Origin: Tricholomella constricta
Lineage: Eukaryota; Basidiomycota; Agaricomycetes; Agaricales; Lyophyllaceae
Direction of reading: 5' to 3'
Length of the DNA: 64,000 nucleotides
Assembly (NCBI GenBank): GCA_013368375.1
Contig: JAACJP010000072.1
Span: 1 to 64,000, forward strand
Shown one piece after another: positions 6,512 to 25,666 of this stretch (positions are counted from its first letter, which is position 1; each line of letters opens with the position of its first letter). The notes under the pieces are model-generated. The model was not told the origin of the DNA. It did no database searches and saw nothing but the letters and a program-made list of their open reading frames with translations. Made by a program: the position numbers and the translations under genes.

Positions 6512-7563
6512 GCGACATGCGCGACCTTACTCGAACGCTTCTGGTGGCCTAATGTCCGGGCCGACGTCGTGTGGTTCGTGCAGACATGTCACATATGCCA
6601 GATCCAACAAACGACCAAGGTCCTGATCCCTCCGATCGTTGCGACACCTGCGCCACTGTTCGCAAAAATGTATATCGACACTATGCACCTACCTGTTAGG
6701 ACCTTGCGTAGCACGCTGGTTGCGGAGTTATTCCGAGACCACCGAAGTGGACAGGCCTGACGTCGTCAAGGAAGACGGGCTCCGATAGGGTAATCGGAGG
6801 TCGTGAGCATTGACGAGGATGTTCACCGGAGCTTATTCGAACGAATGAGCACAAGTGATACAATTGCGGAGCTGAGTAAACCGAGAGAGTAAGAGAGAAT
6901 AAGAAACGGGAACGGGAACTAGTCGTAACAAATGGTAATATCGAGGTGAAGAGTCCGAAAAGAAAGTGGTGCCATATATATACAGTAGACGTGCGTGGGA
7001 AGGCGTAGTGGGTGTGAAATTAGGGGGGTCATTAGGGCCGGTCGTGACACTACCACCATCGAATGGTTTCAAATACATTGTCCAAGGTCGTTGCTCCTTG
7101 ATTCACTTTCCTGAATGGCGCGCGCTCCGAAAGGAAAACAGTCGCACGCTCGGTGACTGGATGTACGAAGACATCATCTGCCGGTGGGGCGGGTTGCGCG
7201 AAATCGTAACCGACAACGGACCAGCCTTCATCAAAGCCGCCGAACACCTCACAAAGAAATACCACATACACAATATCCGAATCTCAGGATATAACTCTAG
7301 AGCCAACGGGCTCGTCGAGCGATCCCATTTCGACATCCGACAATCCCTTTTCAAAGCCGCCGACGGAAACGAAAACAAATGGTCGCAATCCGCCTACTCA
7401 GTCTTCTGGGCTGAATGCGTCACGATCCGCAAGCGGTTGGGGTGCTCCCCCTATTACGCTGCGACAGGAACTCAACCCCTTGTCCCACTTGACATCGTCG
7501 AAGCCACATACCTGCAACCGCCACCCGACTCTATCCTGTCCTCCACCGACCTCTTGGCACGTC
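6512..7563 (+). pseudogene. GypA-2 integrase, N-terminal zinc region and core (broken)
   Basis: Plus-strand integrase of a second GypA copy. It begins abruptly at the LTR-A boundary with the FWWP and TCHIC zinc-binding region, then is cut after MHLP by the solo LTR at 6694-7049. It resumes at PSNGFKYIVQ and runs through the catalytic core (VTDNGPAF carries one Asp, NGLVERSH the Glu) to LLARRAI, where the KDZ transposon enters. Removing the solo LTR (with one CTACC) and the KDZ element (with one GCGCGATC) gives one continuous frame into 22972. The 5' part of the gene is missing from the window. Confidence 0.9.
6694..7049. repeat. Solo LTR, 356 bp, TSD CTACC
   Basis: The sequence starts TGTTAGGACC and ends CGTGACA, with the 5-bp duplication CTACC on both sides (6689-6693 and 7050-7054). 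It interrupts the GypA-2 integrase between MHLP and PSNGF, and precise removal restores the frame. It holds a TATATATA stretch near 6974. It has no internal coding region, so it is a solo LTR left by LTR-LTR recombination, from a family not otherwise seen here. Confidence 0.9.
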
Positions 7564-7571
7564 GCGCGATC
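7564..7571. repeat. 8-bp target-site duplication, left (GCGCGATC)
   Basis: GCGCGATC occurs here and at 22964-22971, immediately outside the KDZ transposon ends. Collapsing the two copies gives the codons for A-R-R-A-I-A-L-Q-K-R, continuous integrase. Eight-base duplications fit what is reported for Zisupton-type elements. Confidence 0.92.
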
Positions 7572-9300
7572 CACATAGAGGCATCACAGTGTATTGTGTC
7601 CCACGGCCCACAGGGCCAATACATGTAGTGTGTTTGACGGAACGAGCGGGCCCGCTGTGGCTCCAGCGGGCCTCATACATCGTATCAATGCTCACGGTGC
7701 AGCGGGCCTTATACACTGTATCCACTCAGACGGTGTCAGCGGGTCCCGCTGGTCTGCACCAACAGGCCCGATACAATGGACACCGCGGCATGCACGATAC
7801 AGTGTAGCGGATGGCACGGTGCAGCGGGTTTGTACAAGGTATCGGAGAGGACCAGTTCTGCCCCACCGCGGCATTGATGATTGTTGCAGGTGTTGAAAGT
7901 ACGTCGTTCGGCCCCGCGGCATGAGATACAATGTATCGGGTTGCACGGCACCAGCGGGCCTGTTGCAGGTATTGAAAATACCTCGTTTTGGGTGCCGCGG
8001 CGTGAGATACAATGTATCTGACTGCACGGTGGGACGGCCAGCGGGTCCGTTGCAGGTACATCGCGGGTGGTGCCGCGGCATGAGATTCAATCTAGCATTG
8101 CCGCGGCATGCATAATACAATGTATCGGGCTACACGGTGTAGCGGGTGGTACAATGTATCGGGTTGCACGGCACCAGCGGGCCTGTTGCAGGTATTGAAA
8201 ATACCTCGTTTTGGGTGCCGCAGCGTGAGATACAATGTATCGAGCTGCACGGTGTAGCGGGTGGTACAAGGTATCGTGTGGGACGGGGCCAGCGGGTCCG
8301 TTGCATGGCACCAGCGGGCCTGTTGCAGGTATTGAAAATACCTCGTTTTGGGTGCCGCGGCGTGAGATACAATGTATCGAGCTGCACGGTGTAGCGGGTG
8401 GTACAAGGTATCGTGTGAGACGGGGCCAGCGGGTCCGTGGCAGGTACATCAGTTGGTGCCGCGGCATGAGATTCAATCTAGCACTGCCGCGGCATGCATA
8501 ATACAATGTATCGGGCTGCACGGTGTAGCGGGTGGTACAAGGTATCGTGTGGGACGGGGCCAGCGGGTCCGTTGCAGGTACATCAGTTGGTGCCGCGGCA
8601 TGAGATTCAATCTAGCATTGCCGCGGCATGCATAATACAATGTATCGGACTGCACGGTGTAGCGGGTGGTACAAGTTATCGTGTGGGACGGGGCCAGCGG
8701 GTCCGTTGCAGGTACATCAGTTGGTGCCGCGGCATGAGATTCAATCTAGCACTGCCGCGGCATGCATAATACAGTGTATCGGGCTGCACGGTGTAGCGGG
8801 GGTACAAGTTATCGTGTGGGACGGGGCCCGCGGGTCCGTTGCAGGTACATCAGTTGGTGCCGCGGCATGAGATTCAATCTAGCATTGCCGCGGCATGCAT
8901 AATACAATGTATCGGACTGCACGGTGTAGCGGGTGGTACAAGTTATCGTGTGGGACGGGGCCAGCGGGTCCGTTGCAGGTACATCAGTTGGTGCCGCGGC
9001 ATGAGATTCAATCTAGCACTGCCGCGGCATGCATAATACAGTGTATCGGGCTGCACGGTGTAGCGGGGGTACAAGTTATCGTGTGGGACGGGGCCCGCGG
9101 GTCCGTTGCAGGTACATCAGTTGGTGCCGCGGCATGAGATTCAATCTAGCCCTGCCGCGGCATGCATAATACAGTGTATTGGGCTGCCCAGTGTAGCGGG
9201 TGGTCGTTTGGTGCCGCGGACCGCGGCATGCATGATACTATTTATGTTGGATCTATTGGACTCAAGCCAGAGGGAATACATGTAGCCATCATCATTTTCT
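7572..9300. repeat. Left terminal inverted repeat and 134-bp subterminal array
   Basis: The first ~280 bp are inverted relative to the right end. From about 8080 to 9165 there are tandem units of 134 bp (one of 133), each with two TGCCGCGGCA palindromes, the string TTCAATCTAGC (seven copies), and GTATCGG-type and GTACAAG-type blocks. Short open frames here are repeat artefacts, not genes. Such arrays commonly act as binding sites for element-encoded proteins. Confidence 0.85.
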
Positions 9301-9362
9301 TATACACAATAATATGCTTGCAAAAAAAATTGGGATCGGGGGACAGGACAACATCATTCTAA

Positions 9363-11024
9363 TCATTCCTCCTCTTCTTCGCTGTCTTCGCTGAATTCCA
9401 TTTCCATGTCGTCTGCGAGGATTGAATCAGGAATGTGTGCAAATGATGATGGCGTGTAAGGGCCATGCGGTACCTGAATACGAGTGGAACCGCTCGCGGT
9501 ATGCTCCACCGTGTCTGGGATATCACCGTCGTCAAAGGCAAGCAGCTTGTCAAGGTCCAAATGGGGCAGCCCAGTGCCGGGGCGACGGACATCCTGAACC
9601 TCGTCATCACTCAAATCCACTGCAACGACTGCCTCATCATCAGAGACATCTACAAGGACAATGCCCGTGGAAGGCTCATCATCACTGCTTAGCTCAAGTT
9701 GTGGAATGGCTGGACTTTGATCCTCATCGTCGCTAAGCACAATCATTGGGAGAGTTTCGTCATCATCAGTCAGCACAATCATGGGGACTGATTCCTCATC
9801 ATCGCTGAGCAGGATCATAGGAAGGGATGTCGCTTCATCTTCCTTGTCCTCATCATCTGACAACTCCAACGCAACGATGGAGGATGCCGCGGCGGTCTGC
9901 TTTCGTGATGCCGCGGCGTCCAAGTGTGGGGGCGCCACGGCTGCCTGCTCTGGGGATGCCATGGTGTGTGCTGGGAGAGGAGTTACAATGATAGGAGACC
10001 GATCTCTATGGTAGTAGCCGCGGTATGGCTCCACATCGTCAATGAAGCTTCGTAGGGGTTGTTGCTCGAAATGGGTGGGTATTTCTGGGCTTTCCAGGCT
10101 ACGTGGCTGGATGATGTCGGTGCCAATGGCATCAAATCTGTGCGCACTGGAGGGGGAATGGGTGCCATCAGAAGAGTCCTCCCACTTCAAGGATCCTGAG
10201 GCCAGATCACCAAAGTCAGTTCCCAGAGGACCTGAATTGGTCCCTGGTTCAAAGATGTCCTTGACCTCTTTAGCAGTGAGGTCAGTGGTTTCTGCTGCAC
10301 CCGCGGTGTTCTCCTTTTGGACCGCGGCCTCATTCATGCTGTGCAATGCCGCGGCACGGCGCATGATCAAATCCATGCGTGATCCAAAGATGCTGGTATA
10401 TCCCTGTGTTTGACCCCGAATGTCATTGACGACGCGGCTGGCTTGATTAGACGGGACCGCCGCGGGAACCCAGGTCTTTGCAGAGTCCGGCTTTAATCCA
10501 CGATGGGTATCCAAGCATGTGTTGATGGTAAACCGGTTAAAATCTTGCCGTGCGTCATCGTCCAAAGGGAAGCTCCACCAGTCACAGGAATAATCGCTGA
10601 CTGGACCTGTGGGATAATCAATGTTCACCGATGCCTCGAGCTCCAGCTGCAACTCGGGAGATAGTTGCCATGTGTCCGTGAGATTGTGGGACAACAGGAA
10701 AAGGTTGCAGGCTAGGAGGCGAATGAGATCTGGAATCTCGCATGGGACCATCATTGCCGCGGCAGCACCAACATATCCCAGCGCAAAATCCTGGGTTGAT
10801 CACATCAGTCACACAACACGTGATGTGATGTCACAAATACGCACAAGCTCTTGAACAATGCGCGGCTGCATCCACTGCTGAACATCCTGTTCCTCTTTCT
10901 TGTATATCTCCAGGGCTTTGCGGAAGCGAGATTCACAGTAGAAGAGGACCTCCTGTATGTGAGCACCATGGACATTGTAAGTGCCCAGGGAGAAATCCAT
11001 AGAATCTAATGGCTGGAGAGTCAT
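9363..11024 (-). CDS. KDZ element gene A: acidic protein with seven SIM-like motifs
   Basis: Two exons joined by a 54-nt intron (10791-10844; donor GTGCGT, acceptor CAG) give about 535 residues. The N-terminal 150 residues are helical and not recognised. The C-terminal third is strongly acidic and repeats a hydrophobic core followed by serine or threonine and acidic residues: ALELSDDE, MILLSDDE, MIVLTDDD, MIVLSDDE, QLELSSDDE, VLVDVSDDE and AVDLSDDE (about 9600-9878). These match the pattern of phosphorylation-enhanced SUMO-interaction motifs. The protein ends in a run of glutamates. No enzyme domain is visible. A role in SUMO-dependent targeting is inference. It is the last gene before the left repeats, transcribed toward them. 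Confidence 0.75.
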
Positions 11025-11478
11025 GAATGTTTTTGTGGAGGATTGGGATCAGATAACAAGTTGTGATGAATGTGTGACACTGACAGAAGAGCGTGACAAT
11101 GATCGGAATTTCAACCGGCCATTCACATTATTTATAGAGTGAGAGCTGGCATATTTATAGAGTGAGAGCTGGCACCGCGGCCCGCGGTGCGTGAGCTGTA
11201 ATTCATATCCCTTTCTTAGTGACGATGGTTATGTTGTGTTGTATCTAATAATGGGCTAAGCACCATGGTGGCTCGGCCCCATGTGTTACTTTTTGGTGGT
11301 GCCGCGGTGCTACTTGAAGCCACCCTGGCCGCGGTGTGACCTTCAATTGTGACAATGTGCAGGCACACCGCGGTGCCCTGGCTGCAATATGAGTTCCTAG
11401 AGATAATGTAGTATGCCGCGGTGTCGCTTCAAATTTCTTGGTCAAAAACTTGGTCTGTATTCAAATCTTCAAATATTG
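11025..11478. other. Intergenic region between KDZ genes A and B
   Basis: No gene is seen. It should hold the promoter of gene A and the 3' end of the transposase gene. It contains a 21-nt direct repeat, TTTATAGAGTGAGAGCTGGCA, twice in tandem (11131-11174) with TATA-like cores, and at least six CCGCGG motifs. Confidence 0.6.
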
Positions 11479-14400
11479 CTACTGAATGACAAGTGTGAGG
11501 TATGCAGTGTTCACCCTTTTAAATTGTTCCTCTGCTGAAGATGCAAGGCGGTACCACATAGCTGCCTTTCGCTTGGCATAGGCAGCTGCACCGGCTTTAC
11601 TCGCAGCATCCGCGGCATTGCCGCGGTCTTTCCAAGTTTTCATCTGATGAAGGAAATACCGTGTAGTCCAGGTCATTTCATATCCCACTAATATGTACTC
11701 CTCATTCCAGCGATGCTTTTGAGCGCGTGCACGTAAGAAATGGACCCTTTGATCTATTGGTGAAGAGTGAATTTAGTAACATTGCCGCGGCTAGGTGACG
11801 TCCAGTATGACACCTACATTCCAAAAGAGCTTCAGGACTGTCAGAGGCCTGGCTGCCAGTTTGCCAAATCCAAGACAACCGAAGTGTTGTGGAACCAGGT
11901 ATGTTAGGATCCAATATGGCTGTGCTAGCCTTGATGTGCTCTCTGAGTAAGATTTTGTACTTGTCCAATGTAGCTTCATCTGCGTGAAGGCGAACCATAG
12001 CAGCTCTGCACTTCCCATATGACTGACAAAGGGTATTGAGAGTGGTGTTGAGCTTGACGATGGTGACACGGGAGCGTGTACGAACAGCCTTCCGCGGAGC
12101 AATACGCATAACATGAGAGTATAGGAATGACTTCTCGGCAATGCTTTCCCGGAGGTTCGTCAGCAACTTCTCTGCTTGCAGCTTGCGAAATTTCAATTCA
12201 AGGCTTGCCAGAGGGGAGATGATTGCAGAATTGTTGACCGAGGGCAGGAAGAGGGGGGTCCTTTCAGGTTCAATGACTGGGTCATCTGCCTCAGCAGGGT
12301 TGGCTCTACCCGCGGCATTGGTTGTGGTTGGGCCACTCCCCACGGCTCCTGCTCGGCCACTGCCACCATTTCGTGCCGCGGTATTCATCTCGCCACTCCC
12401 GCCATTTGGTGCCGCGGTATTTGGTGCCGCGGTATTCATCTCACCTCTTTCCGTTGCACCTGCCGCCCCTTCCCCTTGGTCACCCTGTCCTTCTATCTCA
12501 TCATCTTCCAGGTAGTCAAACATGTCATCGGGAGGGTCATCTGGAATGACTGGGGTTGAATGATGATGTCCCGTGCGGGCTTGCAATGCTGTGAAGACGT
12601 TAATCTGCGTATGCAGACGTGCTCTTTCAGCCTCCACTGCCTTGCGGTCCTCTTCCCGCGGCTCCCGCACCAACCTCTTCACTTTATTCTGAAGGCTAGT
12701 CCTGGCACATCAGGTCAGAATGATGTTCAACATAAAATGCAAAAGACTAACTGCTGCTCTTGAAGGTCAATTCCTAGCTGGATCCACTGTTCTTCAAGTG
12801 TTAAGCATTCCATGACCTCTGGTGACTCTTCACGGGGTTCGATGGCTGTAGTGCGTGCCTTCAGAATGTCCATGGCCTTGGGATCGTTAAGCCTTTCCCT
12901 CTCCGCTTCTTCAATCTCTGCAACCCACTCAGCAATCTGCTCAACCGGAACTCCATTACACATTTGATCATAATATAGGTCGGCACTTTCCCTGGTTTCA
13001 GTAGCTCGACGGAATCTCGAACATAATGCCGCGGCTAGAGAAATATTAGGAGTCAACACATGACCGCGGCATACAACACACCGCGGTAAGACCATTATTA
13101 CTCACACATGTCAAGCAACTTCTTCCAATTTGAATCATTCATGTGGTCGTCCAGAATTTCTGCCCGATGGGCCAAAGTAGCTGTCCTAGTCATGGGGGAG
13201 ACGGTGTTAAGGACGGCCCATAAGCTCTCTAGGATTTCTCCAGCAACAACCGCGGCACCAGGGATGAAAGATGATGCAAAGCGGAAGAAACAGTCAGGCT
13301 TGTGGCCATGGACATGCATAAGGCCAATAGCGCGGTCAATTATCATTTGAGGGGGAAGGGAGGGTCCGATGCGATCATCAAGGTGGATGATGTACTGGCA
13401 AACGATGTCGTAGATAAAAAGAAGCACCTCGATGTCAGTCATATTGGTTGTTTTGATTGCCTGTAGAAGAGACCAGTCTACATTCTTTTGTTGCTCGCCA
13501 GCATAAAGGTTAGCAAGGCTGTTGGGTGCAAAGCAACCATGACGGGCGCATGCAACGGCAACAATCCCCGTCACATCACAAGCCTTGGAAGTCAGCAATG
13601 CTTGTTCCAAAACACGAAATTGGTTTTCACATGGGGCTTTCTGCCGCGGACAAGGTAATCAGTGCCGCGGCGATGCATAACCAAATAGACTTACAGTGAG
13701 TTTGTTGAATGCTGTCTTCAAAAACTCATGATAATCCTCCCTCTTGGCCATCATTCCTCCCCCCTCTGATAACCATACATCAGCCGCGGCGTTTGGCTGG
13801 CGAACATGGTCTGCTTTGAAATTTCCATCTGCTACAAAAGACCGAATGTAGACTTTCCTGTGTTCCAATCTGTTAAAATGCTTAACTTTATGGAAGAAAT
13901 CAGGTGGAAGTACCTGTTCTGGTCAGATTTCCAGTCAGTGGGTAGATTGACCTCGGGCTGAGGGCATGCGGGGCAAAAAATTGCAAGATCACCCGCGACA
14001 GGGTTCATTGGATCATCTTTCTCATGTCCATAGCCAGCCCACTTTATTTTCTTCAACCACCTCCAGGAACGAGAAAGCCTCCGCAGTTCACGATAAAAAT
14101 TATCAATGTCCGCGCTGTTCGTCGCCGCGGCCGTTGCACGACTAAGTTTTTGCCAATACTGAAAAGCTGATGCTTTACATTCCAGGTTTGCCAATCGATA
14201 GTCATCCAAAACGCCAGCTGTGAAGAGTGTTGTGTACCGAGTGAATGTTGTGGGTATCAAGCGGGCATGCATTAGGTCAATAGTGACCATTGACTGGCCA
14301 TGGCAAGTGCAGAAGACCAGAGGGATGTAGTGGATTCCGTTGATGTGCACAACGCGAACATAGTTATTGTTCAGTCCATCATGCCGCGGCCCAAGGACAG

Positions 14401-15624
14401 AACTAACATTTCTGTCCGGTGGATCCAAGAATTCCTCGTCCAGGTCATCGTCCTCGATGTCCTCTGGTGTCTCTTGAGTGTCACGACCTTCCATGTCATC
14501 TTCCAAGTCGTCACCCGTTTTTCGCCCACCTCTGAGGTGAAATAACTCATCCAGACGCGCTATATACTCTTCATCAGTGGCTGGGCCGTCATCCGCCAAG
14601 TCCGTGTCTTCAAATGCCGCGGCCGCGGCATTAGATGCCGCGGAGCCGGAAGCATTCATGTCCAAATCATATGCCGCTAATCCAGACTCAGCCACTTGTC
14701 CTAAGTCCGTGTCTTCAAATGCCGCTGATCCAGAATCGCATGCCGCGGCCGCGGTATCGGGCACCGCGGCATCGTTTTCCATAGTGTCAACTTCCATGAC
14801 ACTCTCCGCGGTGTACTGATGGTGTGGCGCAAGGCCTTCTTCCTCTGTGATAGGAGCTTCCGCCGATGTCCCTGTTGAATGACCTTGCTGTGGCTTAGAG
14901 CCCCGCTGGGATATGGTGTTCTGGTCCATGATATCTTTCTGGGTTTGAAAGGTCTCCAGACGGGTGCGCTGAAACTGAAGTTGGGAGCAGAACTGTTCCC
15001 CGGATGAGTGGGGGACGATAATGTACGCCCCAACCTCCCACAGTCGTGCTGTACGGAAGTATTGCCCATTCCAGCACTCAATCTTATGCAGGGGATTGTC
15101 TCGGTGATTGATCCGCATACAGTGGCGGCAGAGTATGCGGGGGCTGGTACAGTCCTGACACCGCCATCGAGCATAATTTTTGTGGGGACAGTCTGGGCAA
15201 GGGTGCTTTTCTTGCATAGTCTCTCTAGCCAGTAGACCTTGCAGCATCTCAGGAGCATGGTCAACAAACTCCTGTAGGTAGTTGGCTTGTGTCTGTTCAC
15301 CAATCATTGTCAAAGCAATAATGGAAAGCAACAGTAGTTTACCTTTGTCCGACGAATGGGCACTGGTATTTCTATGTCATCATTGAAATGACTTCCTCCA
15401 TTATCAGGATCTACTGGAACTTGGGTTGAGCCAATGGGCACTGGCATGCGTGGAAAGGCACTGGGAATAGGGATAATTGGCCTTGACTGCAAAGGAACCA
15501 TTGTTGATTCCACAACATCACCTCGAGCAGTAGTCCGTATGGATGTATGAACATCCAGGCCACCCTGCACCCGATCAGTCTGTCTAAGGATGGGATCCTT
15601 TTTGGTGCGTTTGCGCTTGAGCAT
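11479..15624 (-). CDS. KDZ transposase with CxC2 cysteine cluster
   Basis: Transposase of the Kyakuja/Dileera/Zisupton class. Seven exons (15624-15343, 15292-13914, 13869-13695, 13640-13106, 13034-12752, 12701-11818, 11753-11479) join in phase to about 1,270 residues with no stops. Residues ~120-175 hold the CxC2 cluster (CPDC, CQDC, CRHC, then PLHKIECWNG). The RNase H-like core shows ADGNF (Asp ~569), CARHG (~643), YDIVC (Asp ~690), HVHGHKPDC (~720) and GEILESLW (Glu ~746). The C-terminus has the family's helical tail (RARAQKHRW, EMTWTTRYF). Introns are 44-71 nt, and three of them contain CCGCGG. The start at 15624 (MLKRKRTKK) is chosen for its basic N-terminus. It is head-to-head with gene C. 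Confidence 0.92.
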
Positions 15625-15960
15625 GGTAAGGAAAGAGGGTTGACAGAGAAAGCCTGGTGATGGTTGATAATCTTCACAATGATCTTGAATCACCCCATGT
15701 CATCTCCTCATGGCATTGAACCTCCTCATGGCATTGAACCTCCTCATGGCATTGAACTCTGTACACATGACCTCCCTGCAGACACATGTACTGCCTTGCT
15801 TGCTACACATGTCCTGTCGGACCCCGGCCAGATGTTAATCAAAGCGATGGATTTGTTTGCGCAGTGTCAGCTGGCCGCGGATCAAATTTCTAACTTGACC
15901 CGAGAACCAACCTCATGTTTGTTGTCCCATTTTGGTCATTCCTTTCCACTACACTCTCAC
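15625..15960. promoter_or_regulatory. Divergent promoter region of transposase and gene C
   Basis: The 336 bp separate the transposase start from the chosen start of gene C. They hold three tandem copies of a 15-bp unit, CCTCATGGCATTGAA (15712-15758). These are open in the gene C frame, so an upstream start at 15664 cannot be excluded. One CCGCGG is present at about 15875. Confidence 0.5.
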
Positions 15961-18321
15961 ATGTCAGCCAACGAAGCCGAGGCACCAAAGACCATCAGAA
16001 AACAAAGTGCCTATTCAAGAGAGGAGCGTGATGTCCTTAACAAGTACAAGGACGAGTACCGGGGAGAGCCAGATGCAGCCAAGAGAGCCAAGATTTTTAC
16101 ATCCAAGGTGCTTGTTGACATTTTCAACTACTGGAGCTTGCAAAAGAAGGATCCCCAAACGGACGAAGCTTCACAAAAAGCAGTAAAGGTACACTATGCA
16201 CCATTCAACCCATAATCATTTGCTAAACTGCCCACAGCAACTTGCCAATTGGGTGAAGAACAACTGGAGGGTGTACCCGGACTTCAAGAAATCTATGGGG
16301 GAATTGAACATCACCCTCCGACATGTGGTCATGCGCACTAAGCGCGACGCAATCCATGATGAACTGGAGCACATACTGGGTGTGGACGACCTTGACCCAG
16401 CATGCCCCGAGGCATTTCAGCAGCGGAACAAGGCCATTTCCAATGTCATCAAAAACCTGGCCCCTGATGAACGCCAAGCATTGGAAACGACAGCTCAGGA
16501 GTGGAGTAGAAAGGGATATCCACAGGAGGAAAGGCCAAAGTAAGTGTCACCGCGGCGGGCGGCGCACGCCGCGGCCCCGACGCTGTGGCTATCGTTATGA
16601 GGCTAACACTTGCCCTGCCCACAGAATTGCAGATAAACATGGCTTCACACGGGTGGAAGATGTGGACAAACGGCGGTGGCGGGAAATGGGAATGGTTTCC
16701 CTTACATTTGTTGCATGGACCAACAGTGAAGGGCACCTTTGTGTGCGCGCGTAAGTAATTTTTCACATTGCATAACTGTCCGCGGCCTGACGTTCCGCGG
16801 CGTAGTCACGACAAAATTGCTCACAACATGGGCGCCGTGTATAAGAAGTTTACAGAAACCTTTCCTACCTTGATTCAAGACTGCAAAGTCAAGCTTATGG
16901 ATTATGTGGTTGCTGTACAGCAGTCACTTGACCCCATCCCCCTAAACCCTCTCGAGGCCGCGCAGCCCAACATCCAAGTGAAGATACATGAGGACGGTTT
17001 TCCGATCTTACCATCTCCGGATGACACTCCAAAAACTCACAACGATCTTGAAATGATCGTACGTTACTATCTGAATTACCATTACAGTATGTTGTTGTCC
17101 ATTGCTGTGTTGACTCTCTGACATACTCCTTTAGTGCTTGCCTCTGGCCGTACAAAAAACTCGACACCATTCAAGGCTGTGGAGGCAGAGTGCGCCAAAT
17201 TTATTGCCGCGGAATATCTTCCCGCGGGACAGAGAATTTGTGATCCACGCAACATTCGATTCAAGGAATTAGAATCGCTCCTTGACTTTTGGTACCAGCG
17301 CCAGGAGGAACATGGTCATTCTTCTGCATTCCGGTGGTCCTCTTACCTGAACACCAAGAAGGAGAGGGTTGCAGCAGTATATGGAGAACGAAAGGATTTG
17401 GAGGCCGCGGCAGAACGAAAACAGGCAATCAGGAAGAAGAAGAGGAAAGATAAACAAAGGATGCATATTGACCCTTTGTTGGAAGGGTTGACATCTATGC
17501 CCCCGTTGCCAGCCAGCGAAAACACCGGAGCGGACCGCGGCAGTCCAGGCCGCGGCGAAATGGAACCAGGGGAGACTGCAGTCAGTCCCAGATCACAGCA
17601 ACCTAACACCAGCCCAAACACCGGAGCGGACCGCGGCAGTCAAGGCCGCGGCGAAATTGAAACAGCCACACAATTCAATACCAGATCACAGCCACCTAAC
17701 ACTGAGGCAGCCAGCCCAAATATCGGTGCGGACCACGGCAGTCGAGGCCGCGGCGAAATGTCACCAGATGAGGATATGACTGTTGGGGTAGACCAAGGCA
17801 TGTCTGGGCACCACAACCAGGAGGCTAATTTCAATGCAGCACACAAGGACACTCCTCAAGTCCAAAGTGTACTTGTAGACGATGATACCATGCGCAAGCT
17901 CATGGCCCGTGGCTTTGCAGGACAATACCCAATCAATGGCCCTGCAGACGGACCACCAAAGTACCGCGTGCCTGAGACTGCACTAGAGCTATTGAAGCAG
18001 GATAATCCCACCACACCCATAAATGAACCTTCAGCATCAAGGTCTCCAACCCCTCAACTATCCAGCACTACACCGGCATCACAAAAGCGAAAGCGCGATG
18101 AAGCTCATACGATGGGAACTAAGAAGTCAAGGAGCACTCAGAGGCTGTTAGATGAGGCGCAGCAGATTCTAGAGGGGTCCAGTAGGAGATCGACAAGGCA
18201 GCAGGATGCCATGGCAGTTACATCAAGGGCAGCAACACGGTCCGCGGCAGCGCGGGCCGCGGCACCCAAGCCCGCGGTAACAAGGTCCACAAAAGTCAAA
18301 GCAGATAAACGTAGACGTTAG
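15961..18321 (+). CDS. KDZ element gene C: large basic protein, possibly DNA-binding
   Basis: Five exons (15961-16188, 16238-16539, 16625-16750, 16806-17086, 17135-18321) join in phase to about 707 residues. The N-terminal part has a charged helical segment (SREERDVLNKYKDEY) followed by LANWVKNNWRVY, which recalls helix-turn-helix accessory proteins of fungal transposons; this is resemblance only. The middle is unrecognised. The C-terminal half has a KKKRKDK basic cluster, three repeats of GADRGS..GRGE (17530-17760), a KRKRDE cluster and an Ala/Arg/Lys-rich tail, suggesting a nuclear protein. Introns 2 and 3 each carry two CCGCGG motifs, and the repeats carry up to two each. An alternative start at 15664 would add 99 residues. 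Confidence 0.75.
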
Positions 18322-18713
18322 AGGGAAGCTAGTCAAATATCTACACATAATAGTATGCATGCTTATCAACCAGTCTGTTATGATTTAGAAATGTATCTGT
18401 GGTGATGGGCAGCAATGCTTGTGCCGCGGCATCATTGATGTGCCGCAGCATTATAGCATTGCGGCACCTTCAATGACATTGGCACACGTCATTCACACTT
18501 CATTTGTTCAACACTTGAGTGCAAGAAAAATTTTTGATTATCTACAGCTGTAACTAGTATATGTACAGTGTAGCTCTGGATGTTAGCTTTTTGTTATCTA
18601 CAATTGTCTGAGGTATATATCTACAATTGTCTGAGGTATATAGAATAGCTATTGTATACAATCAAGAAAGCAGGTGTCAAAAAACAATGTAAAAAAGGGC
18701 GTCCGCGGAGTGT
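18322..18713. other. Convergent 3' region between KDZ genes C and D
   Basis: No gene. It lies between two converging stop codons and probably holds both polyadenylation regions. A tandem duplication of CTACAATTGTCTGAGGTATA lies at about 18598-18642, and near-palindromic TGCCGCGGCA/TGCCGCAGCA blocks lie at 18422-18450. Confidence 0.55.
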
Positions 18714-21042
18714 TCAATTGAGGCGCGGTTTTTTTGCCGCGGCCTCATCCAAATCGTCATCTGCCTTCCGCTTTTCACCATCTGTGCTGATGGGAGCCTT
18801 GCTACGCGTCCGGTGAAGTGGCTCACCATCTTGATCCATAGGTGCCGGTGTGCGGCTACGTGACCGTGAGCGACGAGTTGTAGCGGTTGGAGGGGGAGCT
18901 AGGTGTTCAGTCTCCGGGGTTGGCGAAGTCACTTGGAGGGTAGGCGGCAAAGGTGGGGGAGGGCTGTCCGGCACATGTGGAAAGGGCGAGGGGGATGGCG
19001 ACGGTGGTGGTGGTGATGGTGATGGTGGTGGTGGTGGTGGTGGTGGTGGCAGGGTGGTGGTTGGTTGGGGCGGGGACACCGGTGCTGGGAAGTCAGCCGC
19101 GGCATGCATGTCCGCGGTGTCCATGTCCATGGGGCTCGCCGCGGCGTGAAGGTCGTCAGACTCCTCAGTACCAAGAGGCTGCTCACCACCTTCTGCGCCG
19201 TCTCCCGCCGCGGCATCGACGTTGTTGGGGGGGGAAGCTACTGCCGCGGCATCAACGTTGGGGGAAGACTCACCCTCCGTCTCACTTGCCTCCTGCATCA
19301 CCACCCTCTTTCTAAACACCCGGCACTCCATAGAGTCCACTCGGTCTGTCAGGACCGCAATGGATGCTGACATCCGGCGGACCGCCTCTGTCAACACTCC
19401 AACCCGTCGAGACATCTTCCCGAGAGCCTCAGAGTGACCCTCCCTCCCTTGCTCCAGCTGCTCAATCTTGGCCTCCTGGGCAGTGACCTCAGAACGGAGG
19501 TTTGTGGTGTCCTCATCCATGGCGTCGGCAAAGTCTTCCAGCTCACGCACTGTCCCCTTGATTGACCTGATGGTGGAAGACATTTCATCATCGTTTACTG
19601 CGGCATGAGGGGTCAGGGCCACCGCGGTGACGGGAGGAATAGGGGCCGCGGTGGGGGGAGCGGTGGGAGCGCCAGGAGTGGGGGCCGCGGCCTTGTGAGA
19701 TGCACCTCTATCTTTCCCTACTCTTAATTAGCTTTGAAACTGAAATACAAATTTTACACTTACTTGGTTTGCTGGGCCCAGCCACCGGGACCTCATCACC
19801 CACCACTCTTGAAGTCCCAGCTGACTTCTTCCTCAAGGGGCCATATGTGCAGTGCCTCTTCTTGTCACGGCAAGCTTGACATGCCGTGGCTGAGGATGCT
19901 TGCTTCCTGCATTCTTGATTGAAGCGAACGCAGGCACTGCAGGGCGGGTGGTAGAGTGTTGGGTTGTAGGGGGCGGGGGCTGTTCTCTGGGCACCAGCAG
20001 GGTCTGCATCTGAGTCAACTTCCATGTAAGTTGTCTCCCCACCGCTTTCTGCTCCCAGTGCGGTGAAGGTGGCCGCGGTCGATGAGTGGATGGGCTCCCC
20101 CACTGTGATGGTCGTCTTGTGGGGGGTGTGGGGGGGTGCGGGTGCCTTTTGCTTACCCTTGTCCTTCTTGGTGGCCTTGGGTTTGGGAGCGCGGGCCTTT
20201 GCCACCGCGGCCGCGGCCTCCTCCTCTCTCTTCCGCACCGCAGCCTCCTCCTCTCTCTTCCGCACCGCGGCCTCCTCCTCTCTCTTCCGCACCGCGGCCT
20301 CCTCCTCTCTTTTCCTCGCCTCCCCTCTTTTCCTCGCCTCCTCCCTTTTGCGCGCCGCGGCCTCCTCCACTTCTTTCTGTGCCGCCGCGGCCTCTTCTCT
20401 CTTCCGTGCCTCCAGTTCCCTCTTTGCCTTCTTGCTCGCCCTCTTCTCTTCCTGCTCCCTCACCCTCTTCTCTTCCTCCTCCCTCACCCTCCTCTCTTCC
20501 TGCTCCCTCACCGCAGCCTCCTTCATTCGTGCCGCGGCCTCCGCCTTGGTCTTTCTTGCCGCGGCCGCGTCCTTTTCTGCTTTGGCCTTCCTTTTTGCCA
20601 CCTTCTTTGCGACAATGTCATCAGCGACAAGGCTTGCCGCGGTCCCCGCCTGGACCTTTGATGACCCCTCACCCCTGTCCTCCTTCTCCTCCACCACGGT
20701 GACCCGCTTCTTGAACTCCGCAGCCTGCGTCCGGTACGCGGCGAGGTGCTCAGCAAACTTCTCGGTCTCACGAGAGACCTTTTGAAGCAGCTTGAGCGTG
20801 AGCCCAAAGAACGAGCTGTTGAATAGCTTGATTGTTTGGGGGTCTCGGATGCCGGAGACGCGTATGTAGAAGTCCTTCTGCTCAAATATTCAATAATTGG
20901 AAAAGAAAAAAAAAAATTAAAAAGCGATGCTTACCGAGTCCTTGTAGATGGCGACGAACTCATCGCGCATCCCAGCCTTTACGGCCTTGAGGAGCCTCCG
21001 GTCAGTCGCAGCGAGGGTGGTTTGAACGGCGGAAGAATCCAT
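18714..21042 (-). CDS. KDZ element gene D: mirrored Zn2Cys6-like, coiled-coil protein
   Basis: Exon 1 (21042-20935), a 57-nt intron, exon 2 (20877-19764), then exon 3 to 18714 give about 740 residues. The second acceptor is ambiguous (19721 or 19712; both stay in frame). Residues ~100-250 are a Glu/Lys/Arg-rich coiled coil that includes a 27-bp minisatellite (about 20207-20316, EEEAAVRKR). A cysteine cluster follows at 19943-19849: C-x2-C-x6-C-x9-C-x2-C-x6-C (CSACVRFNQEC ... CQACRDKKRHC). This mirrored Zn2Cys6-like module is seen in many Agaricomycete proteins. A second coiled coil, a proline tract and a basic RSRSRSR tail follow. DNA binding is inferred; Zn2Cys6 proteins typically contact CGG triplets. 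Confidence 0.8.
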
Positions 21043-21232
21043 CAAAGTTAATGTAAGGTGATCGGGTGGAAGAGGGTGCGCGGTGCGGGGGAAGTTGTGG
21101 TTGGGAAGAGAGAGAGGCGGTGAAATTTTTTTCAACATCAGTCACATGACCTTATCTCATCAATCCATCGATCAAACAAATTCACATAAAGTGCTTGGTC
21201 TCGGTCTTCAAAATCAATCAACTCCCCCCATT
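21043..21232. promoter_or_regulatory. Divergent promoter region of KDZ genes D and E
   Basis: The 190 bp lie between two head-to-head starts (gene D at 21042 and gene E at 21233). No clear TATA box. It is short enough that the two genes are probably co-regulated. Confidence 0.45.
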
Positions 21233-21893
21233 ATGAACAACGAAGCCTCTGAAGGACACCGCGGTGAGAACCCCCGCGGTGCCAATTCCTCCCGTGTTGT
21301 GCAGTCCAGCACCGCGGCACCTCCCACTGGCTATTCTGTCATTGCCACTGAAAACGGGGACTATCTGGTGCCAAAGTTCCTCGTTCCTGTGACCGAACGT
21401 GCACTCATGGTCCAGCCAATGGACTCAACCTTTCCTGCTGGGGTGAGCCCAATTGAAAGCTTTTCTTTCTGCACACCACTCTGAATAATGCATTTTAGCC
21501 CTTGCCACACACAGAGGGCAAGTGCCATTTCCTAGCCCATGGAAATATCATGATACCTCCAGATCCAGTGGGTTTCAAATGATATGGGTTGAATACATAC
21601 TAATATAGTTACAGCCCTTGACTGGCCGTGAGGCCTTGCAACTTCACGCAGAGGTCCTGGCATACCAACAGCAATATGGCGGAACATATGCCGCGGCATC
21701 GCGCCAGCTTTATTTGGCAGAAGTTGCAAAGCTTGAAAGTGTGGCCGCGGCACACAATGCCTTCAGTAATCTGCGTTCTCAAATCGATGGTCCACAGTCA
21801 GGTAACATGATAGACAAAAAGGGAAAGGGAAAGGACAGAGAAAAGGACGAGAGGCCAAAACCCAAAGCTAAGAAGGGAAAGAGGGCAAAATAG
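21233..21893 (+). CDS. KDZ element gene E: small basic protein
   Basis: Three exons (21233-21442, 21499-21567, 21615-21893) join in phase to about 185 residues. The second intron has a TACTAAT branch point just before its acceptor, and the first has donor GTGAGC. Skipping the 69-nt middle exon would also keep the frame. The first half is polar. The second has a helical Ala/Gln-rich stretch (HAEVLAYQQQYGGTYAAA) and a strongly basic tail (KKGKGKDREK ... KAKKGKRAK). I do not recognise the family. The basic tail suggests nucleic-acid binding or nuclear import. Confidence 0.65.
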
Positions 21894-22009
21894 TTTACAC
21901 TTGACAATTGAAGCACATTTATCACAAGTCTTGCCACTATGTCCTTTTGAAACACCGCGGTATTACACGAAACAGAAAGTAGGTTGTTGACAAGTGAATA
22001 TTGATACCA

Positions 22010-22963
22010 TGATGCCTTGTACACAACCGCTACACCGTGCAGCTCGATACATTGTGTGATGCATGCCGCGGCACTAAATGTGTTTGCCGCGGCAGTGGTA
22101 CATTGTATTATGCATGCCGCGGCACCAGAAGATGTACCTGCAACGGACCCGCTGGCCCCGTCCCACACGATACGTTGTACCACCCGCTACACCGTGCTGC
22201 CCGATACACTGTATTATGCATGCCGCGGCAGTGCTAGATTGAATCTCATGCCGCGGCACCAACTGATGTACCTGTAACGGACCCGCTGGCCCCGTCCCAC
22301 ACGATACCTTGTACCACCCGCTACACCGTGCTGCCCGATACACTGTATTATGCATGCCGCGGCAGTGCTAGATTGAATCTCATGCCGCGGCACCAACTGA
22401 TGTACCTGTAACGGACCCGCTGGCCCCGTCCCACACGATACCTTGTACCACCCGCTACACCGTGCTGCCCGATACACTGTATTATGCATGCCGCGGCAGT
22501 GCTAGATTGAATCTCATGCCGCGGCACCAACTGATGTACCTGTAACGGACCCGCTGGCCCCGTCCCACACGATACCTTGTACACACCCGCTACACCGTGC
22601 TGCCCGATACATTGTGTTATGCATGCCGCGGCACCAATTATGAATGCCGCGGCGTGGCAGCCACGGCGTGCCGTCCTGCCAAAACTTTCTGACCTTCCTT
22701 GTACAAACCCGCTGCACCGTGCAATCCGCTACACTGTATCGTGCATGCCGCGGTGTGCATCGTATCAGGCCTGTCAGCACAGACCAGCGGGACCCGCTGA
22801 CACCGTCTGAGTGGATACATTGTATAAGGCCCGCTGCGCCGTGAGCATTGATACGATGTATGAGGCCCGCTGGAGACACAGCGGGCCCGCTCGTTCCGTC
22901 AAACACACTACATGTATTGGCCCTGTGGGCCGTGACATACAATACACTGTGATGCCCCTACCT
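22010..22963. repeat. Right subterminal array and terminal inverted repeat of the KDZ element
   Basis: Inverted copies of the left-end units: three full 134-bp repeats around 22230-22540, with the string CTAGATTGAATCTCATGCC, and then about 280 bp that mirror 7572-7850. The right array is shorter (about 0.95 kb against 1.7 kb), so the ends are asymmetric. The small open frames here are repeat artefacts. Confidence 0.85.
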
Positions 22964-22971
22964 GCGCGATC
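22964..22971. repeat. 8-bp target-site duplication, right (GCGCGATC)
   Basis: Matches 7564-7571 exactly and is followed directly by the resumed integrase frame. Confidence 0.92.
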
Positions 22972-23431
22972 GCCCTACAAAAACGAACGACCGACCTGGA
23001 GCGACTGCATTCAGACGTATACGCGGCGCGACGACAAGCGGCGATTCGCTTTGAGCTTCAACACGCCAGAACCTTGCGCGACCATAACTTTAAACGCGGA
23101 GACCTAATCCTCATGCGCAACACGAAAATCGAGAAGTCGCTCAACCGCAAAATGCGATCTAGATACCTAGGTCCGCTCGTCGTGATCTCACGCAACCGCG
23201 GAGGCGCCTACATCCTCTGCGAACTGGACGGCACCGTCTTACACCGGCCTGTAGCAGCGTTCCGACTCACCCCCTATTTTGCATGAAACAATATCCTCCT
23301 ACCCGATAGCGCCATGGACATAGACACCAAACGACTCAGAGAACTGGAGGCTACGACGATCACCGACGACGAGGACCGACCCGAAGTCGTAGGCGACGAC
23401 TCTGAGTCAGAAGATGAGCAGAACTAATCGC
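22972..23431 (+). pseudogene. GypA-2 integrase C-terminal part
   Basis: Continues the integrase cut at 7571. It reads ALQKRTTDLERL, then a helical arm and the SH3-like C-terminal domain (FKRGDLILMRNT, MRSRYLGPLVVISR). An in-frame TGA at 23284-23286, after RLTPYFA, is followed by a further open stretch of about 48 codons (NNILLPDS ... SESEDEQN) to TAA at 23431. An arginine codon (CGA) mutated to TGA is the simplest reading. Confidence 0.88.
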
Positions 23432-23798: not shown

Positions 23799-25666
23799 TC
23801 ACCCCACCACTACATCCCCGCCCTCGCCCTCGTCACCATGTTTCCCATCTACGTCGCCCTCGCCTTCACCCCCGGCATCCTCATCGTCGGTGCTAACGGC
23901 ACTCCCCTCGCTAGACTCGGACCCGGCCGCCATCTCATCCACCACCTCCGAGCGCCGCTCTCTCAGCATCCTCAACGTGTCCACCGTACCTTCGACTTGC
24001 AAGTAGATTTGTCGCAGCGACCACCGCGTTATCTCTTGCTGGGACTGCAAGATCTGCGCTTCCTGTACCAGAGTCCGAAGAAAGGCGTTGCGCGAAAACA
24101 GGGCGCGGTCCACGTCGGCAAGGCCAAAGTTGTCGATCATCGATGTCGACGCCATGTAGCCCAGGCCCTCCAGGTCTTCGTTACGAAGCAAGGCCTCCGC
24201 TTGAGGAAGCGACCCCTGCATTAAAAAACTAGTGCCCATCCCCGCAGAGCCGGCGGACTGGAACATCGCAAGGCGGTGAGCGCACCGCAGCCAGTTCGCG
24301 CTCGCGCTCCCGGGGATCCGCCATGAACGGTTGGGGAGAGCGGTGCACCGGGTACATGGGTGCAACGTTGGGCTCCTTCTCCTCGGCATCCTCGACGATA
24401 GCGCGCGATGGGTTTCGGCGCCCCGATCGCGAGCCAGAGGCCCTCGGAACGACGATGGGGACGCCATCGCGCGTCGTCTCACACTTCTTGGCGTGTATCT
24501 TGCAGAGCGCGCAAGGACTAACACCGGGCTTCTGCAGACAATCGACGCCGGAGTCTACACAGCGGTCGCACTAGGAGAAAATCAGCACCGACAAATGACA
24601 CGACTCAACTGACAACCTACCGCCACATCGCGCACCAAGTGGTGAGGGCACTCCTTCTTGAAGTCCTCGAGGCGCCCGAGCCACTTGTCGGTCGTGCGCC
24701 GCTTCCTCTTGCCCTTCCCTAATTCTTCCTCGGGAGCCTCCACTACCGATCCTTCCCCGTCGTCTGCGACGTCGCGTTTGCGCTTGCGACCCGAAGTCGT
24801 CGCCTTCCCCTGCTCACGGGCCGCGGGCGTCGTACCTACCAGGCTCGTCAGTGGCGTACCAGTAGTGGGACAGAAGACGTATCCCCAGCGCGAGGTAGAC
24901 TCACGTGCACGATGAGCCCGTGGTGTTGGCCGAGCAACCTGTCCGAGATCAGCGTCCCGACGCATGAACACGCCTAAACGTACGTACCTCGACAGCACTG
25001 TCGCTAGCGACGCGAGGTCCGCCGCCGACTGACATCCGGGCTGTAAAGTGAGGCGGCTTGCTTTTTTCTTTAACTAGCGGCGCCGCTGGAACACTACCCG
25101 ACGCCTCCCCCGCGACCGGCGGTAGGATCGCCTCACCACTCCCCTACGTCTGCTCCGCCTCCATCGCCGCCGCAAAATCTGCTTCGCGCATCTCGACGTC
25201 ATTAACGCCGGGACGCAGGTCCGGCGCGACTGGTGGTCCTTCCCTGGGCCCCTCGGGAACGGCTGGTGGTGCAGCCCCTGCGCCGCGAGAAGCCCCCGCG
25301 ACGAGATGCCGTTCGCGATGCCGGCGGGTGTACTCGTCCTACGAGGAGAACCAGACGAGTCAGTACCAACACACCAGAGGACCAAACCGGACATACCTCA
25401 GGCTCCAGATCCGCGAACTTTTCCTTCCACTCCCCGTCGTCCTTTATGCGTGACCATATCAAGGTCAGCGCATCCTGCTCCTTGGGCCATTCAAGCCGTC
25501 CAGGGCCCGCCCCTTGTGTACGAAGCGCAGCTAGGCCGTCCCGGATGTCCTCGAGCGCCTCAAGGTGCTCTCCGCGAGTGGCGTCGGAGGGGAGTTGGCA
25601 CCATCGAACGTAGTCTGTCATCAGGTACCGCAGGACACGCTTGAAGTCAGACACGACGGCCGCCAT
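23799..25666 (-). pseudogene. GypA-2 antisense gene, copy 1 (mirrored Zn2Cys6-like protein)
   Basis: A multi-exon gene running opposite to the retroelement, between integrase and the polypurine tract. The first exon (from MAAVVSDFKRVL) is helical and ends ..FADLEPE before a GTATGT donor. A later exon has KRKRRTTDKWLGRLEDFKKE and is spliced by a 48-nt intron onto CDRCVDSGVDC ... CALCKIHAKKC, i.e. C-x2-C-x6-C-x8-C-x2-C-x6-C. The C-terminal part has LLRNEDLEGLGY, LADVDRALFSR and a leucine-rich coiled coil, and ends acidic. An in-frame TAG (25144-25146, probably from CAG) and a frame change near 24270 suggest decay. Function is unknown; a transcription-factor-like role is inference. Confidence 0.7.

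Follow-up and report, generated by a model that had tools for sequence, protein, structure and literature searches.

The element and its genes

The window, a 64,000-nucleotide stretch of the Tricholomella constricta genome, contains a KDZ DNA transposon with the following features.

7572–22964: KDZ DNA transposon with 5'-CA..TG-3' termini (exact junctions, by comparison with the C11, C45 and C70 copies)
7565–7571: left 7-bp target duplication, CGCGATC (junction comparison)
22965–22971: right 7-bp target duplication, CGCGATC (junction comparison)
7783–22753: 117 CCGCGG sites, all positions enumerated (first start 7783, last site 22748–22753)
8230–9204: left tandem array, 134-bp unit, 7.3 copies, most with two CCGCGG
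22085–22633: right array of the same 134-bp unit, inverted, 4.1 copies
9363–15376 (approximate), minus strand: KDZ transposase gene region, several exons (Pfam; intron models)
13107–13859, minus strand: KDZ transposase domain (PF18758, 4.3e-36, match at 13101–13658)
14129–14368, minus strand: CxC2 cysteine cluster associated with KDZ transposases (PF18803, 1.5e-17)
15720–18318 (approximate), plus strand: multi-exon gene kept in the C1 relative (comparison, intron models)
18717–19727, minus strand: neighbouring open frame that may be another exon of the cluster gene (open frames)
19711–20889, minus strand: open frame encoding the candidate motif-binding protein, a coiled-coil-like charged region followed by a six-cysteine cluster
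19849–19941, minus strand: Zn2Cys6-type cluster, C-x2-C-x6-C-x9-C-x2-C-x6-C (alignment, profile and structure comparison)
21062–21890, plus strand: small conserved gene, two open frames (open frames; C1 comparison)

The insertion target is a Ty3/gypsy-like integrase frame (read by eye). At the corresponding places the other copies carry GGGTCGC (C11), CTAAGAG (C45) and AAATACA (C70), and all four copies having both junctions combine a 7-bp duplication with 5'-CA..TG-3' termini. The ends are inverted and similar over ~265 bp, and a single end of the C6 copy aligns with both (265–267 bp, 91–93%). The marker of the 134-bp unit occurs 7 times on the left and 4 on the right, compared with 5 and 3 in the C45 copy. 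The KDZ gene region has a colinear, protein-level match in the C1 element, its CxC cluster lies N-terminal to the KDZ domain, the arrangement by which KDZ transposases are recognised, and a protein database search with the transposase returned 30 relatives. A Pfam scan of the gene at 15720–18318 placed no family above the cut-off, and intron modelling found no splice junction between the frame at 18717–19727 and the cluster-gene frame.

KDZ elements of the Kyakuja type have 7-bp target duplications and CA..TG termini, according to the part of the source considered here (PMC12730594). The window element thus resembles the TET/JBP-bearing Kyakuja of Agaricomycetes in its KDZ transposase, its duplications and its termini. 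It differs from them in its ~265-bp inverted ends, as the two Laccaria Kyakuja families described in that part of the source have no TIRs (PMC12730594), and, unlike TET/JBP-bearing KDZ elements, it showed no TET/JBP gene in its scanned frames.

CCGCGG saturates the element and stops at its boundary

A hand count in the preliminary description had given about 117 CCGCGG sites in the element and only a handful outside it. The recount gave exactly 117 in 7572–22963, where 5.2 are expected from base composition and 3.5 from dinucleotide frequencies, and 6 in the remaining 48.6 kb (1 in the 7.6 kb to the left of the element, 5 in the 41 kb to its right). The next most frequent palindromic 6-mer in the same interval has 24 copies. 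The element thus carries 7.6 sites per kb, compared with 0.276 per kb genome-wide; across the genome we counted 12158 sites and 12474 of the reversed control, so that the motif has no genome-wide enrichment. The boundary is equally sharp at 11 related loci, two of which have no inside sites: together they contain 148 CCGCGG within the termini (18.4 kb) and none beyond them (16.5 kb). All DNA-level comparisons of the motif were made among loci of this one genome.

In coding stretches we found 69 sites, compared with 9.4 +/- 2.7 in synonymous-codon shuffles (maximum 18 in 1000), a test built on open frames such that about 5 of its 69 sites fall in introns modelled later. Neither base composition nor codon use can therefore account for the excess, and related copies carry CCGCGG as well; these were the two points on which the preliminary description had proposed to judge the motif, and it came through both. 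Each of the three codon frames is represented among the sites. Their frequent reading as in-frame alanine held, with xCC-GCG-Gxx at 52 of the 69 sites, the full Ala-Ala-Ala being found at 25 of these. Two other details proved too strong. Rather than most introns, 4 of 9 modelled introns contain the motif (7 sites in 489 bp), among them the intron at 13641–13694 in the KDZ domain, which has two. These intron models are crude: 15 junctions were tried, 11 gave a candidate and 4 none, and 9 were used, the two candidates set aside (one inside a single open frame, one of 172 bp) having site-free best candidates. Likewise, the full extension TGCCGCGGCA, described as usual, accompanies only 29 of 117 sites, mainly in the terminal arrays, whereas GCCGCGGC accounts for 60 of 117. 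Of the half-site flanks, CCGCGGCA is the most frequent, at 103 of 234 half-sites.

The inverted terminal regions are the densest part of the element, with 35 sites in 2.6 kb. Interior sites are clumped (CV 1.23 versus 0.98, P 0.016), gaps of 15 bp being seen 11 times and gaps of 27 bp 5 times; the even spacing that would be a sign of coating was thus not found. Interior spacing in the C1 element shows no clumping (CV 1.00). As a separate observation, at C41:263301-279200 CCGCGG is confined almost wholly to the neighbourhood of the two ends.

The syntenic C1 relative is 59% identical to the window element over 6.1 aligned kb, in which it has 32 sites and the window element 29. Only 8 sites are at identical positions; as judged from this alignment, it is therefore density, more than position, that is maintained. 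The retained fraction (8 of 29) nevertheless exceeds that of GC-rich hexamers (32 of 615, P 1.8e-4). In the C33 copy, CpG within the motif was kept at 60 of 74 positions versus 117 of 174 outside it (P 0.03); for whole sites the difference (28 of 37, versus 209 of 331 GC-rich hexamers) was not significant (P 0.15). The decayed C6 copy has lost 7 of 8 sites, every loss involving a CpG transition. Saturation extends to short elements with related termini, for instance two in which the terminus matches lie 4.5 kb apart (C41:387156/391700, C29:331020/335565). Together, these results support the view that CCGCGG behaves as a DNA-level feature of the entire element, its density being maintained while individual sites turn over.

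Slippage, gene conversion or insertion might instead have multiplied a functionless GC-rich palindrome. The terminal arrays and the short tandem duplications reflected in the 15-bp and 27-bp gaps do multiply sites. The presence of the motif in introns and in every codon frame nonetheless makes such neutral spread extremely improbable, as does its outlasting of comparable hexamers while being mostly lost from the C6 copy. By eye, base substitutions outnumber clean insertions among the differences from C1, and the comparison gave no obvious sign of the motif having been inserted whole.

A zinc-cluster gene accompanies the saturated lineage

The open frame at 19711–20889 encodes a six-cysteine cluster. 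Zn2Cys6 proteins follow the pattern C-x2-C-x6-C-x5-12-C-x2-C-x6-8-C, and the spacing found in all six subfamily members examined, C-x2-C-x6-C-x9-10-C-x2-C-x6-C, fits it. Invariant in the six-member alignment are the six cysteines, two prolines and a lysine four residues after the fifth cysteine, placed as is the contact lysine of GAL4. In all six members the best match to the Zn_clus profile pairs the profile's second half with the protein's first half, both halves of GAL4 match the cluster in swapped order, and swapping the halves raises the Zn_clus score in every member. Canonical Zn2Cys6 clusters have the basic recognition half first. For the window protein the natural order scores 16.1 bits, below the Pfam gathering cut-off of 21, and the swapped order 27.6; swapped strings exceed the cut-off in 2 of 6 members, and L074 alone exceeds it in natural order (24.2 bits). 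The halves of the cluster are thus apparently circularly permuted relative to Zn2Cys6. In structure comparison with an only fair predicted model (pLDDT 64.9 overall, ~80 over the cluster), 8 of 9 Foldseek matches, which all had E-values of 0.95 or worse, and all 10 rows among the VIA-align matches listed were Zn2Cys6 domains. Protein database searches with the cluster protein, one of which had only two candidates, gave no match.

The class is of interest because CCGCGG is the site of the yeast Zn2Cys6 proteins Pdr1 and Pdr3, whose PDRE is TCCGCGGA in the parts of the sources considered here (PMC5539612, PMC3091778). The element therefore encodes a protein resembling the class that binds CCGCGG, and shares with Pdr1/Pdr3 the identical everted CGG site. 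Its flanks vary by family: in the interior of the window element the base following CCGCGG is C or T in 141 of 164 cases, and in the C1 element A or G in 99 of 134, the favoured A on both sides in the C1 family giving the yeast PDRE as described in those parts. Unlike Pdr1/Pdr3, the protein has apparently swapped cluster halves, is encoded by a transposon, and is accompanied by sites that fill an element and not a promoter.

At 21 of 35 places we found KDZ on the same strand within 8 kb downstream of a cluster gene, and at 29 of 35 within 25 kb, compared with 0 and 3 for the control geometry, in which KDZ lies on the other side of the cluster gene; the 35 places were counted after two second rows of the same place had been dropped, and 6 of them have no KDZ downstream within 25 kb. 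Four further subfamilies show dense CCGCGG beside the cluster gene (12–15 per 1.5 kb). In contrast, 30 KDZ loci without the cluster gene are not enriched, with 0–3 sites each, and no other palindrome is comparable in those loci (3.4–3.8 kb each), the best being CAGCTG in L016 (8 versus 1.4). These data show that CCGCGG saturation occurs in the KDZ lineage that has the cluster gene.

A host Zn2Cys6 transcription factor could be exploited instead, the element being filled with host sites for activation. CCGCGG is a standard zinc-cluster site, and one such protein could serve every subfamily sharing the core. We regard this as very improbable, as the saturated lineage has its own cluster gene in synteny and the motif is no more frequent genome-wide than its control. 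The preliminary description had proposed a binding or modification site used along the whole element. Because the motif is element-wide at the DNA level and a cluster protein is encoded within the element, the option that a protein of the element recognises the motif is a well-supported inference.

Self-recognition and its possible role

We propose that the CCGCGG sites are recognition sites of the element-encoded cluster protein, most likely for anti-silencing, and give this reading a probability of about one half. The Zn2Cys6-type protein (19849–19941, minus strand) would recognise its own element at CCGCGG, read as two CGG half-sites, everted and with zero spacer, as in Pdr1/Pdr3 sites. Selection for self-recognition would hold site density in exons, introns, spacers and terminal arrays, and the bound protein would shield the element from the repressive marks of the host (CpG methylation and the chromatin that goes with it) or, alternatively, activate the element in spite of them. 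Such anti-silencing would resemble that of VANC, which acts on VANDAL elements in Arabidopsis.

In the part of the VANC account considered here (PMC5735166), loss of methylation on motif-bearing copies is shown. The likenesses to that system, drawn from the same part, are a short motif enriched in one family and rare elsewhere, motif variants (C-type and T-type in VANDAL, C/T versus A/G flanks in the present families), tandem repeats that multiply motifs whose density is thought important, and a protein encoded by the element (PMC5735166). VANDAL elements are MULEs; the present element belongs to another superfamily and has another protein, its transposase being KDZ, and Pfam scans of its main frames named no MULE domain. 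VANC21 motifs, as that part describes them, lie mainly in non-coding DNA in one orientation (PMC5735166), whereas CCGCGG is palindromic and exon-rich, with 69 of 117 sites in coding stretches (~5 of these in modelled introns).

The same binder might instead serve as a transposition co-factor, in transpososome assembly, end synapsis and self-recognition, or as an activator of the element's own promoters, with internal sites keeping the complex on the element. The peak of density in the inverted terminal regions is consistent with this, as are the short saturated elements, which are as expected if sites act in cis with protein supplied in trans. Sites in the exons of every gene, however, would be unneeded for end synapsis, and the 30 other KDZ loci do without enrichment; we therefore consider this role somewhat doubtful. 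A related arrangement is known from maize Spm/En, in which subterminal transposase-binding repeats are confined to the ends. The window element is similar in repeating a short motif in its inverted terminal regions, and differs in that CCGCGG runs through all 15 kb.

For anti-silencing by the cluster protein, methylation may be what the sites act against, because the element is poor in CpG apart from the motif (o/e 0.63, with a TpG+CpA excess of 1.37) and CpG transitions make up most of the changes in the C6 copy (44 of 87). The same depletion and decay, and the DNA methylase and TET/JBP matches in the genome, would also fit cytosine-modification marks, two CpG per site, written or erased by an enzyme acting without a sequence-specific binder. 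Several findings render this very improbable. Pfam scans of the element's reading frames found neither a DNA methylase nor TET/JBP, and a bare CpG mark needs neither CCGCGG nor a family-specific flank. A link to TET/JBP, raised in the preliminary description, was not borne out: a genome search gave no TET/JBP match on the contig of the window (C72), and, unlike the window element, the TET-linked KDZ loci of the same genome are poor in CCGCGG (0–1 at each of 8 loci examined). TET/JBP, which is linked to other KDZ elements, coincides with the cluster gene at 1 of 113 KDZ places (merged from the best 150 of 157 KDZ matches), where 2.8 are expected within 8 kb (P 0.30) and 3.8 within 25 kb (P 0.11); mutual exclusion of the two is thus not established.

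Should the proposed anti-silencing be correct, this transposon family would be labelled from end to end, in its exons as well, with binding sites for a protein of its own. VANC-type sequence-specific anti-silencing would then have a second, independent instance, from a different kingdom and built on a different protein fold, which might be the counterpart of the capture of TET/JBP by related KDZ elements of this genome. It would also allow the escape of fungal DNA transposons from CpG methylation to be tested directly with one protein and one 6-bp motif. A literature search returned, among the matches listed, no title or abstract opening on CCGCGG saturation or a KDZ zinc-cluster gene.

More tentatively, and at slightly less than even odds, fungal KDZ elements may have evolved sequence-specific self-labelling and anti-silencing independently of plants, as an alternative to the TET/JBP of other KDZ elements in this genome, through a transposon-encoded, circularly permuted zinc-cluster protein and an element-wide CCGCGG code that bends protein sequence (alanine runs here, other residues in a sister family), with flank and binder co-diverging. 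A setting of flank preference by residues of the cluster was not clean across subfamilies: L073 and L075 both have CKHAKQSC, yet L075 prefers C/G in its flanks and L073 is mixed.

Saturation with CCGCGG and its boundary

The KDZ element at 7572-22964 is saturated with CCGCGG, and the saturation ends at the element's boundary. The preliminary description had put the count at about 117; we found exactly 117 sites in 7572-22963, against 5.2 expected from base composition, and 1 and 5 in the element's two flanks within the window. The whole 44.1 Mb genome, in which the window is on contig C72, contains 12158 sites (0.276/kb) and 12474 of a reversed control pattern. Because CCGCGG is no commoner genome-wide than this control, the saturation belongs to the element itself. 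Pairs at close spacing are enriched genome-wide (839 vs 142), presumably because related elements are dispersed through the genome. The proposed comparison of inside with outside gave the same boundary: 148 sites in 18.4 kb inside and 0 in 16.5 kb outside at 11 loci identified via similar termini (the subset of terminus matches extracted at far-related termini with readable orientation), two of which hold no inside site. The analysis covers one genome and takes in parts of several copies; the searches scored the best candidates only, so copy numbers are lower bounds.

Comparison with the copies on contigs C11, C45 and C70 gave the exact junctions, CACATAGAGGCATC...CCCCTACCTG, and all four insertions carry 7-bp target duplications. 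The element's genes, whose models are crude, are as follows:

minus strand, KDZ transposase with CxC2 cluster
plus strand, gene of unknown function
19711-20889, minus strand, frame with six-cysteine cluster (the cluster gene)
plus strand, small gene

The C45 copy is 99.9% identical across 11.3 kb of body and holds 113 CCGCGG in 15.3 kb; the number of array units varies among copies. The element splits an apparent Ty3/gypsy integrase frame (6939-7571 and 22965-23286). Acidic patches of the type PMIVLSDDE recur towards the C-terminal end of the KDZ gene region (9363-9900, minus strand), with PDIVFSDED-like repeats in the corresponding region of a relative on contig C1; we take such patches to resemble tandem SUMO-interacting motifs.

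CCGCGG acts at the level of DNA. Coding stretches hold 69 sites (about 5 of them in introns modelled afterwards) versus 9.4 +/- 2.7, maximum 18, in 1000 synonymous-codon shuffles; this codon-matched control, suggested earlier, shows that codon use is not the cause. Alanine codons touching the motif are GCG in 58 of 120 cases, other alanine codons in 38 of 254. Most introns had been said to hold the motif: introns do carry sites, but only four of the nine modelled, with 7 in 489 bp (leaving out two further candidates with 0 CCGCGG; four junctions gave no model). The terminal regions contain 35.

Maintenance and decay among copies

The motif is maintained in a selection-like manner. Its presence in related copies, named earlier as a check, extends from C45 to the element at C1:1152400-1164400, which shares the window element's gene order and holds 68 CCGCGG over 12 kb. 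Aligned blocks (6.1 kb, 59% identity) contain 29 sites in the window element and 32 in C1. Eight of them coincide in position, a retention exceeding that of GC-rich hexamers (8/29 vs 32/615, P 1.8e-4). The majority of positions differ, and from the alignment CCGCGG seems to be both retained and regained over time. Of 37 sites compared in the C33 copy (92-94% identity), 28 are intact, which as whole sites is not significantly above GC-rich hexamers (209/331, P 0.15); motif CpGs were retained more often than others (60/74 vs 117/174, P 0.03), also in the reverse direction (62/68 vs 118/150, P 0.03). The C6 copy (91.6%) keeps 1 of 8 interior sites; 44 of its 87 CpGs are now TpG or CpA, and 95 of 118 GpCs are unchanged, a pattern that methylated, unselected DNA would show.

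In the window element's interior, 141 of 164 half-sites have C or T as the base following CCGCGG; in C1, 99 of 134 have A or G. This difference suggests that binder specificity has moved between the two families. Flank preference in other subfamilies, in smaller samples, had no simple match to cluster residues.

Other DNA, about 9 kb long, splits the C33 copy (C33:113001-128600). At C41:263301-279200, two CCGCGG-rich ends, mostly A-flanked, enclose about 12 kb nearly devoid of the motif, which looks like either a nested insertion or two elements. Density is moderate at C1:46486-48841 and C1:57386-60568; the latter adjoins a KDZ match (C1:58247) and is possibly an older decayed relative.

A putative permuted zinc cluster

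The spacing C-x2-C-x6-C-x9-10-C-x2-C-x6-C is found in the window element and the five other subfamilies whose DNA was compared (L071, L073-L076). Invariant in the six-member alignment are six Cys, two Pro and one Lys four residues past the fifth Cys. In natural order only L074 passes the Pfam Zn_clus cut-off, and for each of the six the best-scoring stretch aligns the second half of the profile with the first half of the protein. Rearranging the halves to canonical order raised every score, two of them over the cut-off.

Zn_clus scores in bits (cut-off 21), natural then swapped order
Window protein: 16.1, 27.6
L071: 11.6, 16.1
L073: 10, 14.5
L074: 24.2, 24.7
L075: 9.3, 13.2
L076: 15.3, 20.6

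Against PDB, the family profile matched GAL4 best, weakly (E 2.2), with both GAL4 halves in opposite order. AlphaFold2, given the six-sequence alignment, predicted the cluster at pLDDT of about 80. Zinc-cluster domains (Pho7, GAL4, PUT3, HAP1, AlcR) made up 8 of 9 Foldseek matches, no single E-value being significant, and all 10 of the VIA-align matches listed. Together, these profile and model results indicate that the cluster is likely, though not proven to be, a circularly permuted Zn2Cys6 domain.

Zn2Cys6-type proteins read CGG. CCGCGG is the site of Pdr1/Pdr3 (PMC3091778), and the yeast PDRE is TCCGCGGA (PMC5539612). Directly right of the element (24232-24570, minus strand) is a further cluster with comparable spacing (CDRCVDSGVDCLQKPGVSPCALCKIHAKKC), and another is at L066:3871, in the C33:113001-128600 region; such clusters may be widespread in the genome.

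Linkage to KDZ and possible function

The cluster gene is linked to KDZ. Among 35 cluster-gene places (two duplicate rows merged), a same-strand KDZ match lies downstream in 21 at up to 8 kb and in 29 at up to 25 kb, versus 0 and 3 on the other side. None of 30 KDZ loci without CCGCGG enrichment partners a cluster gene, and four further subfamilies have 12-15 CCGCGG per 1.5 kb adjoining it.

We infer that the cluster protein binds the CCGCGG sites; the purpose of binding lies a further step from the data. The candidate protein would occupy sites across the whole element body, a role proposed because CCGCGG occurs in all gene regions and throughout 15 kb. Motif and protein may instead serve transposition or promoter activation, the chief rival, which may coexist with a whole-body role. 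Under whole-body occupancy, methylation would be the binder's opponent, as the CpG-driven decay of the degraded copy suggests. The model for such a role is VANC on VANDAL transposons (PMC5735166).

At 113 KDZ places (merged from the best 150 of 157 matches), a TET/JBP match lies within 15 kb at 15, and a cluster gene within 8 kb at 21 and within 25 kb at 29. Both occur together at one place, its TET match 8.7 kb off, versus 2.8 expected (8 kb; P 0.30, not significant) or 3.8 (25 kb; P 0.11). Eight TET-linked loci inspected have 0-1 CCGCGG each. KDZ lineages of this genome may possess one or the other, the oxidase or the cluster gene plus motif, but such a division is not established. We give a probability of about 0.42 to a self-labelling, anti-silencing system of KDZ elements independent of that in plants, in which a permuted zinc-cluster protein would use a whole-element CCGCGG code, TET/JBP would be the alternative, and flank and binder would co-diverge; the figure was reduced from 0.45 because the exclusion is not significant. 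On C67, C5, C42, C27, C14, C29, C56, C50, C22, C33, C10 and C51, KDZ matches of other families have a TET/JBP match at a distance of about 2.4-9 kb.
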